A stretch of 64,000 nucleotides of DNA from Phaeobacter sp. B1627. GTDB lineage: Bacteria; Pseudomonadota; Alphaproteobacteria; Rhodobacterales; Rhodobacteraceae. The DNA lies in assembly GCF_006265095.1 (NCBI RefSeq), contig NZ_VCNK01000025.1, positions 1-64,000 on the forward strand, given 5' to 3'. A program made the translations under genes and the position numbers. This document shows, in pieces, positions 39,788-45,971 of this stretch; within the stretch, counting starts at the first letter, position 1, and every line of letters begins with the position of its first letter. Under the pieces are notes generated by a model. It was not told the origin of the DNA. It ran no database searches and was given only the letters and a program-made list of their open reading frames with translations.

Positions 39788-40741
39788 CTATTCCGGTTTT
39801 GTTTCTGCAGTCGCGACAGGTTCGGAGGGGGTTTCGACGTTTTCAATCGCCGCCACCGGCTCTGGCGCGGGCAGATCGCCATGCACTTGCGGCGGCAAGT
39901 TCAGCAGCATCCGGATGATGGTGATCAATTCAGCGCGCATCTCGGTGCGCGCCACCACCCGGTCCAGCATCCCGTGATCCAGCAGATATTCCGCCCGCTG
40001 AAACCCATCGGGCAGCTTTTCGCGGATGGTCTGCTCAATTACCCGGGGGCCCGCAAAACAAATCAACGCGTTGGGTTCTGAAATATGCACATCACCAAGC
40101 ATCGCATAGGACGCCGTGACCCCGCCGGTCGTCGGATGCGTCAGGACAACGATATAGGGCAGCCCGGCTTCTTTCAGCATCTGCACGGCGACGGTGGTGC
40201 GTGGCATCTGCATCAGCGACAGGATCCCCTCCTGCATGCGCGCGCCCCCGGCCGCCGAAAACAGCACCAACGGACGGTGAAGCTTCACGGCCTCCTGTGC
40301 GGCTGCGATGATCGCATTGCCGACATACATGCCCATGGAGCCGCCCATGAATGAAAAATCCTGCGCACAGGCCACGATCGGCGTGCGGCCGATTTCGCCC
40401 GTAGCAACCAGCATCGCTTCTTTTTCGCCGGTTTTCTTCTGTGCCGCACGCATCCGGTCCGGATAGCGTTTCTGGTCGCGGAACTTCAGCGGATCGACAA
40501 CCGGCTCCGGCACTTTGACCTCGGCAAAGACACCCGCATCGAACAGCGCCTCAAACCGGTCTCGCGGGGTAATGTGCATATGATGGCCGCAGTTGGTGCA
40601 GACGTTCTGATTGTCGCTCAACTCACGGTGAAACAGCATGGTGCCGCATTCATCGCATTTCTTCCACAGGTTCTCGGGCACTTCGCGGCGCGAAAAGATC
40701 GAGTTGATCCTGGGGCGGACGTAGTTGGTGATCCAGTTCAT
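39788..40741 (-). CDS. accD: Acetyl-CoA carboxylase carboxyltransferase subunit beta
   Basis: Carboxyl transfer from biotin to acetyl-CoA in the first step of fatty acid synthesis, together with AccA. The 317-residue protein has the four-cysteine zinc ribbon (Cys29, Cys32, Cys48, Cys51) and the crotonase-like carboxyltransferase core with G-G-A-R-M-Q-E-G and [12 protein letters not shown] short acidic/Ala-Pro tail ends the chain. AGAGG precedes the ATG. Confidence 0.96.
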
Positions 40742-40892: not shown

Positions 40893-43800
40893 CTATGATG
40901 CGGGGTCCGGATTGATGCTGCGCAGTGTGCCTGCCTGTACCGCGCGCGCTTCCTGCAATGCGACGGCCGCACCTGACAAATGGCCGGACACCATCTGCAG
41001 CAGCTGCAGCGCCACCGAAATATCGCTTTCGATGACGGTCCGGTATTCCTCGGCGCCGATGCGGAGGAAGACGCAATCCTCTGCTGCGATCAGATCCAGG
41101 CGGCGGGGCTCGTCCACGATCACGGCCAGGTCACCGATCAACCGACCGGGACCGACCAGATTGAGATGCCCCACCTCCCCCGGGAAGCGCAGCTCTGCCT
41201 GCCCCGACAGGCACAGATAAACCGCATCGCCCGGCTCACCTGCGCGAAAGACCGCTGCACCGGTCGGCACACGAACCCATGAGGCCGAAAACGCCAGCAA
41301 TCGGCGATGCCGCGCGTCCAGAGGCCTGAACAGGTCCACATCGCTGACGACCGCCAGCTTTCGGTCGAAATCATCGCCGGCGTTTTCAGCACCAGCCCCC
41401 GGTGACACAGCGCCACCGACTGCGCCGTCCAGACGGCCGTCTTTCAGCTCCAGAAAAAGATCATAGCGGTCCGGGTTCTCAAAGTGATCCTCAATGTGGA
41501 TCATCGTGGTTTTCGGCAACAGCGTCTGTAATCTCGTCCGGGTTTTCAGGCGACTGTCGGCATCATGGCTCGCCAGTACGCGCTCCAGGATCAAAACATC
41601 CGGCCGCTTGATCGCCGCGCGCGTGAACGCGGCCCGTTCCCGAAACACCGGCGCCAGCAGCGCACCACCAAGGCCTGTCGGCAGGTCGTAGATCATCAAT
41701 GCAAGCCGGGCCTTCAGGTCATGGTCGGCCATCACATCGGCGACCACATCCTCTACCGCCTGACCTTTGGCCCCCGCATGAGCCGCGACCCGGCCAAACA
41801 GGGCGTTTTCCAGCACCGTCAACTTGCGCGCATATTCATCTGCCCGGAGACGGCGAAAGACACCGGCGCAGTCGGACAGCAACAAATCACCGCGCCGGGC
41901 GCGCAGCCGCAGGATGTGATTTTTGAACGCCCGCGGCAGGCCGGAGCCAATCTGTTCCTCTGTCAGCAAAAACGGAAGCGTACACAGCAACGCGCGATCC
42001 TCCCGGCTCAGAGTCTGCCCCGCTCCGTGGCGATCTGCGGCCTGTGTAATCCGCACATAGAGGTCCTCATCCAGGCCCAGCCTGCGAAACAGGGGATGTC
42101 CGGTCTCGCCTCTGCCAAAGGTGCGCTGCAGTGTATCCAGCAGAGCCAGGCTGATATTGCGCGTCTCGTCTTCCAGCCCCTCAGCACGCAAGACGCGTTG
42201 GAACGGGCCGTCGGGGTCTGTGAACAGGGCCGTCGGGATCGGCTCCACCGCGAAGGCAAACATCATGTTCTCGGCCAGGGGCAAGGCCGGGTTGTAGCGA
42301 TCCGGCAGAAATCTGTAGACCACATCGCGCAGGCCCTGCTCCACCAATCGCGCCTCGATCTGTGGCCGCAGCGCTTTAATCTGGGCTTCGAGCGCCCTGT
42401 GACGGTCATGCAGCCGGGCGTGCAACGTGCGGTGAAACAGCTGGCCATCGACGCCCATCGCCTCGACTAGTTGAAACCACCAGTCGCGCAGATCTTCGTC
42501 GGAGCCCAATCCGGCGAGGTCCGGGTTCACCCAATCGGCATGGAGCGGGTCAGGGCTGTTCCCCGCCCGCAGGGATTCGGCGCGCTCCGCTGCATCCAGC
42601 TCCATGTCAGAGGCCCGGGGACGGCTGCGCAGCGGCATCAGCACATTGTCCCCCAAAGAGCCGTCGAACAGATAGGGCGCGCTGAAGGCATAGCCGATCC
42701 GCGCGGCGATGACCCCCTGATGCAGCTCCCGCAGCGGGCGGCCCGCAATGACCACCTCGCCGCGCGCGGGCAACACATCCCGTGTCAGCAACTGCGCGAG
42801 CGCCTGACGCTCCGTTGCCGAAGTGCTCTGGATCGCCACCTGCGCACCCGCCGGAATAGTCAGGGTCAGACCATCGAGGATTGGCTTTCCCTCTGCGTCC
42901 TTCACCGTGACATCACGCAGCTCGATCGCACCGCGCAGGTGCGGCAGCTCGGTCGGCTCGCCTTCAAAAAGCTGCTCGTCGATCATGCCGGGAGGGGCAA
43001 ATTTCTCGACCATGACCTGCCAGCGCAGCGACATGTCCTGTACCTGATTGTAGTAGGTCAGCAGCTCTTTCCATGGCCCTGACAGGTCCTTGTAGGCCGC
43101 CAGCGCCGCCACCAGCGCGCCCACCGTGATCTCCCCCCGGATCGCCAGAACCCCGCCGACCGAGTAGAAGAAAAACGGCGTCAGATGACCGATCAGGTTG
43201 TTCAGAAACTTCATGAAGAATTTCTTCGTGTAGATCCGTCGGCGGATTTCGAACAGGCGCCCCAGACGGTTCGAAATCTGCGCCAGGCGATACCGCCAGC
43301 CGCCATTGTTCCGAAGATCGCTCAACCCGGCCGCGGTTTCGCCGATCTCTGCTGCCAGCGCCCGGACCTCGGCAATACGATCCTTGTTCAGCAGGTTTAT
43401 CTGGCGTTGCATCATCGGGATCAGCCAGGCCTGCAGCGGGATCAGCGCGACGGAGGCAAGACCGAACCAGACACTTTGCACAAAGAGAAAGGAAACGATG
43501 GTCAGCATTTGTCCGGCCTGAAAGACAGGCTGGGCCACGGCATCGCCCATCAATCCCCCCATGGGCTCCGATTCGGAGGTGATCATCGACACCATTTCGC
43601 CCTGACTGGTGGTGCGGAAGTAGCTTGTCGGGAACCGCATCATCCGCGCGATCATCTGATACCGCAGACGGCGCAACAGGCGCTCCGACATGATGCCTTT
43701 CATCGTGTTCAACCGCATTTTCATCATGCCGCCGGCCAGAACCGCGCCCAGAAAAGCAAGGCACAGCACCAGCAGGTAATCCTCGGAGGCCAGCCGCCGC

Positions 43801-43970
43801 CCCCATAGCTCGACCATCCCGGTCGGGGAGCCGATGGCATCGTTCACAATCCGTTTCGGCAACTCCAGCGTGGCATAGAGAAACGGAAAGGTCAGCATGG
43901 TCAAAAGCAAGAGCCCCAGCTGCTGCCGTTTTGAATAGCGCCAGATGAAGGCAAACAGGCTCGGCTCCAC
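40893..43970 (-). CDS. Degenerate ABC-exporter-like membrane protein with cyclic-nucleotide-binding domain
   Basis: A 1025-residue protein with a GTG start and GGACAAGG upstream. Residues 15-325 are an ABC exporter transmembrane domain of six helices. Residues 345-445 align with the first half of an ABC ATPase (G-L-T-L-T-I-P-A-G-A at 367-376, Y-L-F-D-G-S-L-G-D-N-V at 433-443), but Walker A reads I-Q-S-T-S-A-T-E-R-Q with no glycine or lysine and the Q-loop Gln is missing. About 310 mostly helical residues (450-760) follow, holding P-L-A-E-N-M-M-F-A. The signature region is D-L-P-T-G-L-G-G (762-769), and Walker B is D-V-L-I-L-E-R-V-L-A-S-H-D without the Asp-Glu pair. Residues 875-1000 form a CRP-type cNMP-binding fold. 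ATP hydrolysis looks impossible; a regulatory or scaffolding role is inferred. Confidence 0.85.
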   Translation of the reverse strand: MEPSLFAFIWRYSKRQQLGLLLLTMLTFPFLYATLELPKRIVNDAIGSPTGMVELWGRRLASEDYLLVLCLAFLGAVLAGGMMKMRLNTMKGIMSERLLRRLRYQMIARMMRFPTSYFRTTSQGEMVSMITSESEPMGGLMGDAVAQPVFQAGQMLTIVSFLFVQSVWFGLASVALIPLQAWLIPMMQRQINLLNKDRIAEVRALAAEIGETAAGLSDLRNNGGWRYRLAQISNRLGRLFEIRRRIYTKKFFMKFLNNLIGHLTPFFFYSVGGVLAIRGEITVGALVAALAAYKDLSGPWKELLTYYNQVQDMSLRWQVMVEKFAPPGMIDEQLFEGEPTELPHLRGAIELRDVTVKDAEGKPILDGLTLTIPAGAQVAIQSTSATERQALAQLLTRDVLPARGEVVIAGRPLRELHQGVIAARIGYAFSAPYLFDGSLGDNVLMPLRSRPRASDMELDAAERAESLRAGNSPDPLHADWVNPDLAGLGSDEDLRDWWFQLVEAMGVDGQLFHRTLHARLHDRHRALEAQIKALRPQIEARLVEQGLRDVVYRFLPDRYNPALPLAENMMFAFAVEPIPTALFTDPDGPFQRVLRAEGLEDETRNISLALLDTLQRTFGRGETGHPLFRRLGLDEDLYVRITQAADRHGAGQTLSREDRALLCTLPFLLTEEQIGSGLPRAFKNHILRLRARRGDLLLSDCAGVFRRLRADEYARKLTVLENALFGRVAAHAGAKGQAVEDVVADVMADHDLKARLALMIYDLPTGLGGALLAPVFRERAAFTRAAIKRPDVLILERVLASHDADSRLKTRTRLQTLLPKTTMIHIEDHFENPDRYDLFLELKDGRLDGAVGGAVSPGAGAENAGDDFDRKLAVVSDVDLFRPLDARHRRLLAFSASWVRVPTGAAVFRAGEPGDAVYLCLSGQAELRFPGEVGHLNLVGPGRLIGDLAVIVDEPRRLDLIAAEDCVFLRIGAEEYRTVIESDISVALQLLQMVSGHLSGAAVALQEARAVQAGTLRSINPDPAS

Positions 43971-45209: not shown

Positions 45210-45971
45210 ATGGGCAGACTCCTTGAACGACTGTTGAACGCAGGGACATTGCGCCGCTGGCAAAAAGCGTCACGCGGGGCGACCACTGCGCCGCTCTCCC
45301 GCCTGCGCAGGCACCGGAGCGACGCCCGCAAACTGCGCTTCTACCTGGATCAGCTCATTCATACAGCCGACGGTCGGCTGGCACTGCCGCTGGTCGGGTC
45401 GTCCTATTTCCCGCGCCCCCAGGGCACCGAATGGTCCTGGCGACCGGAGCTATGGCGCGGCCCCCTGCCGGTCCCCGGCCTGTCATCAGTGCCCAGCAAG
45501 ACCAGACTGGGCGAGGAGGTGCAGCTCTTTCATGACTGCGCGATCTCCGAACTCACCCTGCGGCAACTGCGCAATCTGCGCGAAGAAGATCTGGCCCCCT
45601 TCTGTCTGCGCATGGATGTGTTCAAATTCGACGGCTCCTTTCTGTCACTCGTTATTGATATCCCCGTCGAGGCGACAATCGGTCTCACCCGTCAACACCT
45701 GATCCGGATGGATTGCATTGTCGAAACCGAGCAGCCGATCGAGATTTTCGCCCGTCTGAACGTCAAACACGGCCCCAACACCGAACAATTCGTCCGGGAG
45801 TTGCCTCCGGGCGAAAAAGACGTCACCGTTGAATATGATCTGGCCTATTCGCGGTTGAACGAAAAGCGGATCGAAAAAATCTGGATGGATCTGATCTTTG
45901 AGGCTCCTGATCTCAATCAGGTCATTCTGCGTGACGTGACCTTCGCCCGCTATCGTCGCGCCAATATATGA
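45210..45971 (+). CDS. DUF6478-like hypothetical protein
   Basis: A 253-residue cytoplasmic protein without signal or membrane segments. The basic N-terminus (R-R-W-Q-K-A-S) is followed by W-R-P-E-L-W-R-G-P-L and a beta-rich C-terminal half (residues 130-250) resembling a carbohydrate-binding-like sandwich: F-D-G-S-F-L-S-L-V-I-D-I-P, I-E-I-F-A-R-L-N-V-K-H-G-P-N-T-E. The name is from recall of a Rhodobacteraceae family of unknown function. A second small unknown gene follows after 22 bp and is probably co-transcribed. Confidence 0.75.
   Translation: MGRLLERLLNAGTLRRWQKASRGATTAPLSRLRRHRSDARKLRFYLDQLIHTADGRLALPLVGSSYFPRPQGTEWSWRPELWRGPLPVPGLSSVPSKTRLGEEVQLFHDCAISELTLRQLRNLREEDLAPFCLRMDVFKFDGSFLSLVIDIPVEATIGLTRQHLIRMDCIVETEQPIEIFARLNVKHGPNTEQFVRELPPGEKDVTVEYDLAYSRLNEKRIEKIWMDLIFEAPDLNQVILRDVTFARYRRANI

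Follow-up and report, generated by a model that had tools for sequence, protein, structure and literature searches.

A split, catalytically dead ABC exporter fold joined to a cyclic-nucleotide-binding-type domain in Phaeobacter: a candidate ATP-independent, messenger-controlled gate

In CFTR and SUR1 the ABC exporter fold has become a gated channel or a regulator that still binds ATP, SUR1 being the regulator of a channel. Two other systems bear comparison: an ABC exporter that carries a domain of the cyclic-nucleotide-binding (cNMP) fold, and type IV transporters that work without ATP. HetC, a cyanobacterial peptidase-type ABC exporter, has an N-terminal cyclic-nucleotide-binding domain (CNB), a C39 peptidase and an essential ATPase, and its cNMP-fold domain bound ppGpp rather than cAMP, so such a domain need not bind cAMP when borne by an exporter (PMC10986499). 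SbmA and BacA (SLiPT) are proton-driven, and are reported to have lost the nucleotide-binding domain (NBD) and the coupling helices together (PMC13316013).

The protein described here is encoded in a 64,000-nucleotide stretch of Phaeobacter sp. B1627 DNA, referred to as the window. It has in common with the type IV exporters TM287/288, TmrAB and MsbA the fold of the transmembrane domain (TMD), the coupling helices, the NBD sheet core and the domain order, but differs from them in having no catalytic motif, an insert of ~286 residues, a fused cNMP domain and an inverted pattern of conservation. Like HetC it combines an ABC exporter and a cNMP-fold domain in one chain, whereas it has no peptidase domain and no essential ATPase and its CNB is C-terminal (Pfam); membership of the HetC-type PCATs was ruled out on the lack of a C39 peptidase and the position of the CNB. 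Its type IV TMD, and its proposed ability to work without ATP, are shared with SbmA/BacA; however, SLiPTs have neither NBD nor coupling helices, and since the window protein has both, and no Pfam SbmA_BacA match, it was excluded from that group as well. In contrast to CFTR and SUR1, its NBD has no nucleotide-binding motif left and its input domain is a CRP-type fold. The features of the locus, all but the last on the minus strand, are as follows.

39788-40741, minus: accD, downstream neighbour (in 37/46 clade loci)
40893-43970, minus: whole gene, pseudo-ATPase ABC exporter with cNMP-binding domain, 1025 aa (ORF, Pfam, AF2)
42981-43970, minus: six-helix type IV exporter TMD, residues 1-330 (Pfam, conservation, AF2, Foldseek)
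43605-43634, minus: coupling-helix-1 loop, residues 113-122, FPTSYFRTTS (canonical length, invariant F113/P114)
42606-42938, minus: N-terminal half of pseudo-NBD, residues 345-455 (Pfam, phmmer, AF2)
42804-42827, minus: Walker A column, residues 382-389, STSATERQ, without Gly or Lys
41736-42605, minus: all-helical insert in the NBD helical subdomain, residues 456-745, without PDB or Pfam relative
42159-42407, minus: insert duplication unit 1, residues 522-604, containing PLAENMMFA (hhalign)
41700-41942, minus: insert duplication unit 2, residues 677-757, containing LTVLENALFG (hhalign)
41421-41735, minus: C-terminal half of pseudo-NBD, residues 746-850 (phmmer, AF2)
41643-41657, minus: signature column, residues 772-776, LAPVF in place of LSGGQ (alignment)
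41580-41600, minus: Walker B column, residues 791-797, DVLILER, without the catalytic Glu (alignment)
40956-41363, minus: C-terminal CRP-type cNMP-binding domain, residues 870-1005 (Pfam, AF2)
41100-41135, minus: phosphate-binding cassette (PBC), residues 946-957, GDLAVIVDEPRR (alignment, 64 clade members)
45210-45971, plus: DUF6478 gene, upstream divergent neighbour (in 37/46 clade loci)

The reading frame at 40893-43970 on the minus strand is unbroken, and its GTG start at 43970 matches the start position of homologues. An earlier reading of the sequence alone had recognized a six-helix exporter domain and an overall ABC outline, and both were confirmed. Pfam identified ABC_membrane (E 5e-20, residues 65-291) and cNMP_binding (E 1e-13, residues 899-982), with a marginal ABC_tran match (E 0.08), and the best phmmer match in the PDB, TM_0288, aligned at residues 90-461 and then at 768-847, as is expected of a split NBD. 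The full-chain AF2 model had the exporter fold at a pLDDT of 86 and pTM of 0.69, this being a monomer run without PAE in which TMD residues 162-174 and 288-290 were poorly predicted. Foldseek matches to it reached an E value of 4e-16, the top single-subunit matches including TmrAB and TM288. The window protein is a type IV (ABCB-like) exporter fold with a split, catalytically dead NBD.

All four ATPase motifs that the sequence-only reading had called broken (Walker A, Q-loop, signature and Walker B) are absent from their alignment columns, which in the window protein read STSATERQ, F/S, LAPVF and LILER, respectively, with D at the H-loop. In the window clade, composed of the Roseobacter group, Moritella and Granulosicoccus, none of the 64 members has the Walker A Lys, a full Walker A (GxxGxGK[ST]), an LSGGQ signature or the H-loop His, and the catalytic Glu and the Q-loop Gln each occur once (1/64), while 48/64 have the aligned Walker B Asp, the window protein not being among them. 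Among 48 members of the wider family the Walker A Lys is present in 25, the full Walker A in one, the catalytic Glu in 19 and the His in 15, and the complete catalytic site is found in 0/112 members (64 clade and 48 wider), all of these counts resting on one MAFFT alignment. Homologues with intact Walker motifs had been named earlier as the observation that would make this a decayed copy. Homologues that keep the Lys do exist (~31-38% identity), but the full set of motifs is found in none of the 112. In a third subfamily (L163, L164, L165) an NBD-insert-NBD module without the Walker A Lys is attached to a TMD that has diverged beyond the reach of the family TMD profile.

The ~310 residues said to separate the two NBD halves correspond to 322 residues between the post-Q-loop and pre-signature columns, compared with 36 in five canonical exporters, a net insertion of ~286. 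Predicted alone, the insert had a pLDDT of 94 and a pTM of 0.85. It contains an internal duplication (hhalign 98.6%, E 1e-15) made up of residues 522-604 and 677-757, both units ending in a YNP...ENLLFG-like segment with weak resemblance to the normal post-Q-loop segment. PLAENMMFA, which had been likened to an ABC post-Q-loop motif, is indeed present at 565-573, with a further copy, LTVLENALFG, at ~717-726; its likeness to a true post-Q-loop segment is weak, and is explained by the repeated unit that the insert carries. The insert was rejected as a known domain: the window sequence matched no Pfam family or PDB sequence, and the best matches of its fold were only E 2.4 in the PDB and E 0.67 among viral structures. 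It was also rejected as a mobile domain, as the profile search with the insert alone that had been suggested earlier found none outside the family in 142 genomes, matching only family-size frames apart from two of 308 and 596 aa that are taken to be contig fragments.

The cNMP domain of the window protein scores 51.3 bits against a Pfam cut-off of 27.5. Such a domain is obligatory in the wider family, where in 48/48 members it is either fused (8) or encoded by the next gene downstream on the same strand (40), and fusion is a single change on the tree. When the PBC consensus G-E-x8-R-[TS]-A was sought, most of the split cNMP partners were found to have a textbook PBC of the type GEIAILCDVPRTATVRA, with Thr-Ala kept. 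In the window clade the Gly and Arg are present in 64/64, Asp replaces Glu in 53/64 and the following Thr-Ala is lost, so the change from G-E to G-D that had been pointed out is real, and the Arg is retained. Judged from these residues, binding of a cyclic-nucleotide-type ligand is plausible, although with the Glu to Asp change and the loss of Thr-Ala the domain may have a ligand other than cAMP or cGMP, or may have lost its ligand. The obligatory linkage (48/48) and the textbook PBC of most split partners make the second-messenger input suggested earlier likely. Six class III cyclase domains are encoded in the genome that the window comes from, and cyclases adjoin some of the relatives, 2 of 14 sampled wider loci lying beside one.

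We propose, with a probability of roughly 0.42, that the window protein is an ATP-independent exporter-fold gate or flippase that is controlled by a second messenger and descended from a cNMP-linked envelope-glycan system. Computation supports the fold, the lost motifs, the selection, the fusion, the obligatory cNMP linkage, the kept coupling helices and the gene context, whereas the dimer state, the ligand, the gating and the substrate are inferred. The protein would be a type IV ABC-exporter-fold dimer in the membrane that no longer burns ATP, its pseudo-NBD keeping the sheet core and, through the coupling helices, a contact with the TMD, while every ATP-handling motif is gone. Input would come from the C-terminal cyclic-nucleotide-binding domain and may reach the TMD by way of the helical insert, with its duplication, and the pseudo-NBD. 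The TMD would thereby open, close or be locked, as a messenger-gated gate or flippase. The putative ancestor would have been an already ATPase-weak alphaproteobacterial exporter whose obligatory cNMP subunit was encoded next door, beside envelope-glycan glycosyltransferases.

A survey of gene neighbours, which the sequence-only reading had recommended, revealed two kinds of setting. The gene of the window lineage is flanked by DUF6478 and accD in 37/46 loci, and a CPBP intramembrane protease gene is also there in 34 clade loci, the window being without one. Wider-family loci, which were a sample and not exhaustive, lie in 10 of 14 cases in glycan clusters, which encode GT28/GT4-type glycosyltransferases and a histidine phosphatase and in many cases also a polysaccharide deacetylase. 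Because the window copy adjoins accD/folC/DUF6478 and not glycan genes, its substrate may differ. A roseobacter-type copy with a dead NBD on a Sulfitobacter plasmid also sits in a glycan cluster of this kind, and a Granulosicoccaceae locus with a roseobacter-type dead-NBD member has the cluster in part. The cluster itself (GT28-like, GT4, GT4, histidine phosphatase, GT, deacetylase) is conserved across Alphaproteobacteria beside the ABC/cNMP pair (L108, L109, L110, L112, L115-L119 and L122), and we found no description of it in the open-licence literature.

Conservation in the family is inverted relative to that of normal exporters, the TMD being its most conserved part. In five canonical exporter sequences the TMD scored 0.42 and the NBD halves 0.54 and 0.74, whereas in wider members the values were 0.59 for the TMD versus 0.40 and 0.43, and inside the window clade 0.75 for the TMD versus 0.48-0.63 for the other parts; the ATPase has been relaxed and the membrane part has not. 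This weighs on the possibility that the protein is a membrane receptor or regulator without transport, using the exporter fold as a sensor scaffold in the manner of SUR1. The ATPase is dead in all clade members, the cNMP domain is obligatory and the genomic place beside housekeeping accD/folC is fixed, all of which suit a receptor, but a TMD that is the best conserved part does not, nor does the lack of a universal adjacent effector protein or the placement of relatives in glycan clusters and not in signalling operons, and we regard this explanation as unlikely. Of the earlier suggestion of a receptor or regulator rather than a pump, the dead ATPase, the exporter fold and a likely messenger input are supported, and "rather than a pump" is not: the kept coupling helices and TMD conservation suit a functioning transporter or gate no less than a receptor.

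The coupling helices also bear on how the TMD might be driven. Their loops have exactly the canonical lengths (30 and 51 residues) in all 64 members of the tree set that have an NBD, whether or not it is dead. Among NBD-less relatives (n=16) the coupling-helix-2 loop is always shorter (38-47) and the coupling-helix-1 loop mostly so (25-38, mean 27.5), mirroring the joint loss of NBD and coupling helices in SbmA-type proteins. The pseudo-NBD thus probably still touches the TMD, and from the retention of the coupling helices we infer that the dead NBD may still be in use as a mechanical element. A secondary transporter, in which the proton motive force acts through the TMD as in SbmA/BacA and the pseudo-NBD is a regulatory remnant, is rather improbable in comparison with a messenger-gated gate. 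The SbmA fold does run on protons after loss of its NBD (PMC13316013), related NBD-less TMD proteins exist, and charged residues are conserved in the family TMD, Lys294-Asp295 in TM6 being nearly invariant and Glu133 and Glu135 invariant, with E133, E135 and D295 as possible counterparts of the SbmA glutamate ladder. However, SbmA-type proteins lack the NBD and coupling helices that the window clade keeps, and there is no Pfam SbmA_BacA match at E<=10.

NBD-less relatives of the family TMD recur in copper-resistance operons, usually in the order TolC, copper oxidase, copper-binding protein, cupredoxin, TMD-only protein and cytochrome c (TMD-only genes at L106 6816-8126, L132 8230-10038, L133 8773-10077, L150 5770-7029, L153 5770-6972 and L154 5773-7077). 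Several of these proteins have an additional hydrophobic segment at the N terminus, and the coupling-helix loops of the group are short, which is reminiscent of SbmA-type transporters. No description of them was found in the open-licence literature.

ATP hydrolysis might instead be supplied by a partner if the window protein pairs with an intact ABC half-transporter to form a heterodimer of the TM287/288 or TmrAB kind. Degeneracy of one site is common in heterodimers, and TmrAB and TM288 are among the top single-subunit Foldseek matches, but neither the annotated clade loci nor the window has a half-transporter gene next to this one (a distant partner is possible), and such a heterodimer is improbable because neither Walker A nor signature is present in the window chain, which would leave both composite sites broken. 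It is less probable still, and in our view very doubtful, that the protein remains ATP-dependent through a non-canonical site formed by the replacement residues Glu387/Arg388 and Asp791. These are conserved in the clade (E387 45/60, R388 52/60, D791 60/60), but no clade member has a P-loop Lys or a signature, and the catalytic Glu column is Glu in only 1/64.

A relative at E<=1e-60 is present in 117/315 good alphaproteobacterial genomes. On a TMD tree, from a quick search and with several NBD-less rows on long branches, the window clade is a single branch (support 100) nested inside the wider family, and seven or more changes of state are required to account for the Walker A Lys. Roseobacter-type copies in the gammaproteobacterial Moritella and Granulosicoccus (L060, L061, L063, L064, L065, L076) suggest horizontal transfer to Gammaproteobacteria. 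The window's own genome has a second dead-NBD paralogue of ~50% identity (C70:379392-382418), which is found in most of the genus. Strong purifying selection acts on the dead NBD: Nei-Gojobori dN/dS for both NBD halves was 0.005-0.14 in computable pairs and saturated in one, was 0.03 for the C-terminal half in the closest pairs, and was similar to that of the TMD. That a normal exporter gene is decaying here into a pseudogene, for which the loss of every ATPase motif would speak, is rejected as next to impossible because the dead NBD is under purifying selection and no full catalytic set occurs in 112 members, the frame being open, dN/dS being well below 1 in every folded domain, and the loss being shared, ancient and spread over many species.

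The family is large, occurs in Alphaproteobacteria and is apparently undescribed, as no published description of it or of the S. meliloti locus (for which locus tags were guessed) was found in the open-licence literature. If our proposal is true, its members would be bacterial counterparts of CFTR/SUR-like ABC proteins, and would represent a widespread family in which the loss of the ATPase is graded, from partial to complete and on to NBD-less relatives, and in which what the NBD does as a mechanical relay can be told apart from ATP hydrolysis. The insert is a confidently predicted domain without a solved relative. Potentially, though this is a tentative and on balance doubtful suggestion, these proteins form a new ABC-fold class whose TMD gating runs on a cyclic nucleotide or similar messenger in place of ATP, whose ATPase motifs have been lost several times and which carries a helical domain not seen before. 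The proposal would also connect signalling of the cAMP type with envelope-glycan gene clusters found across the Alphaproteobacteria.
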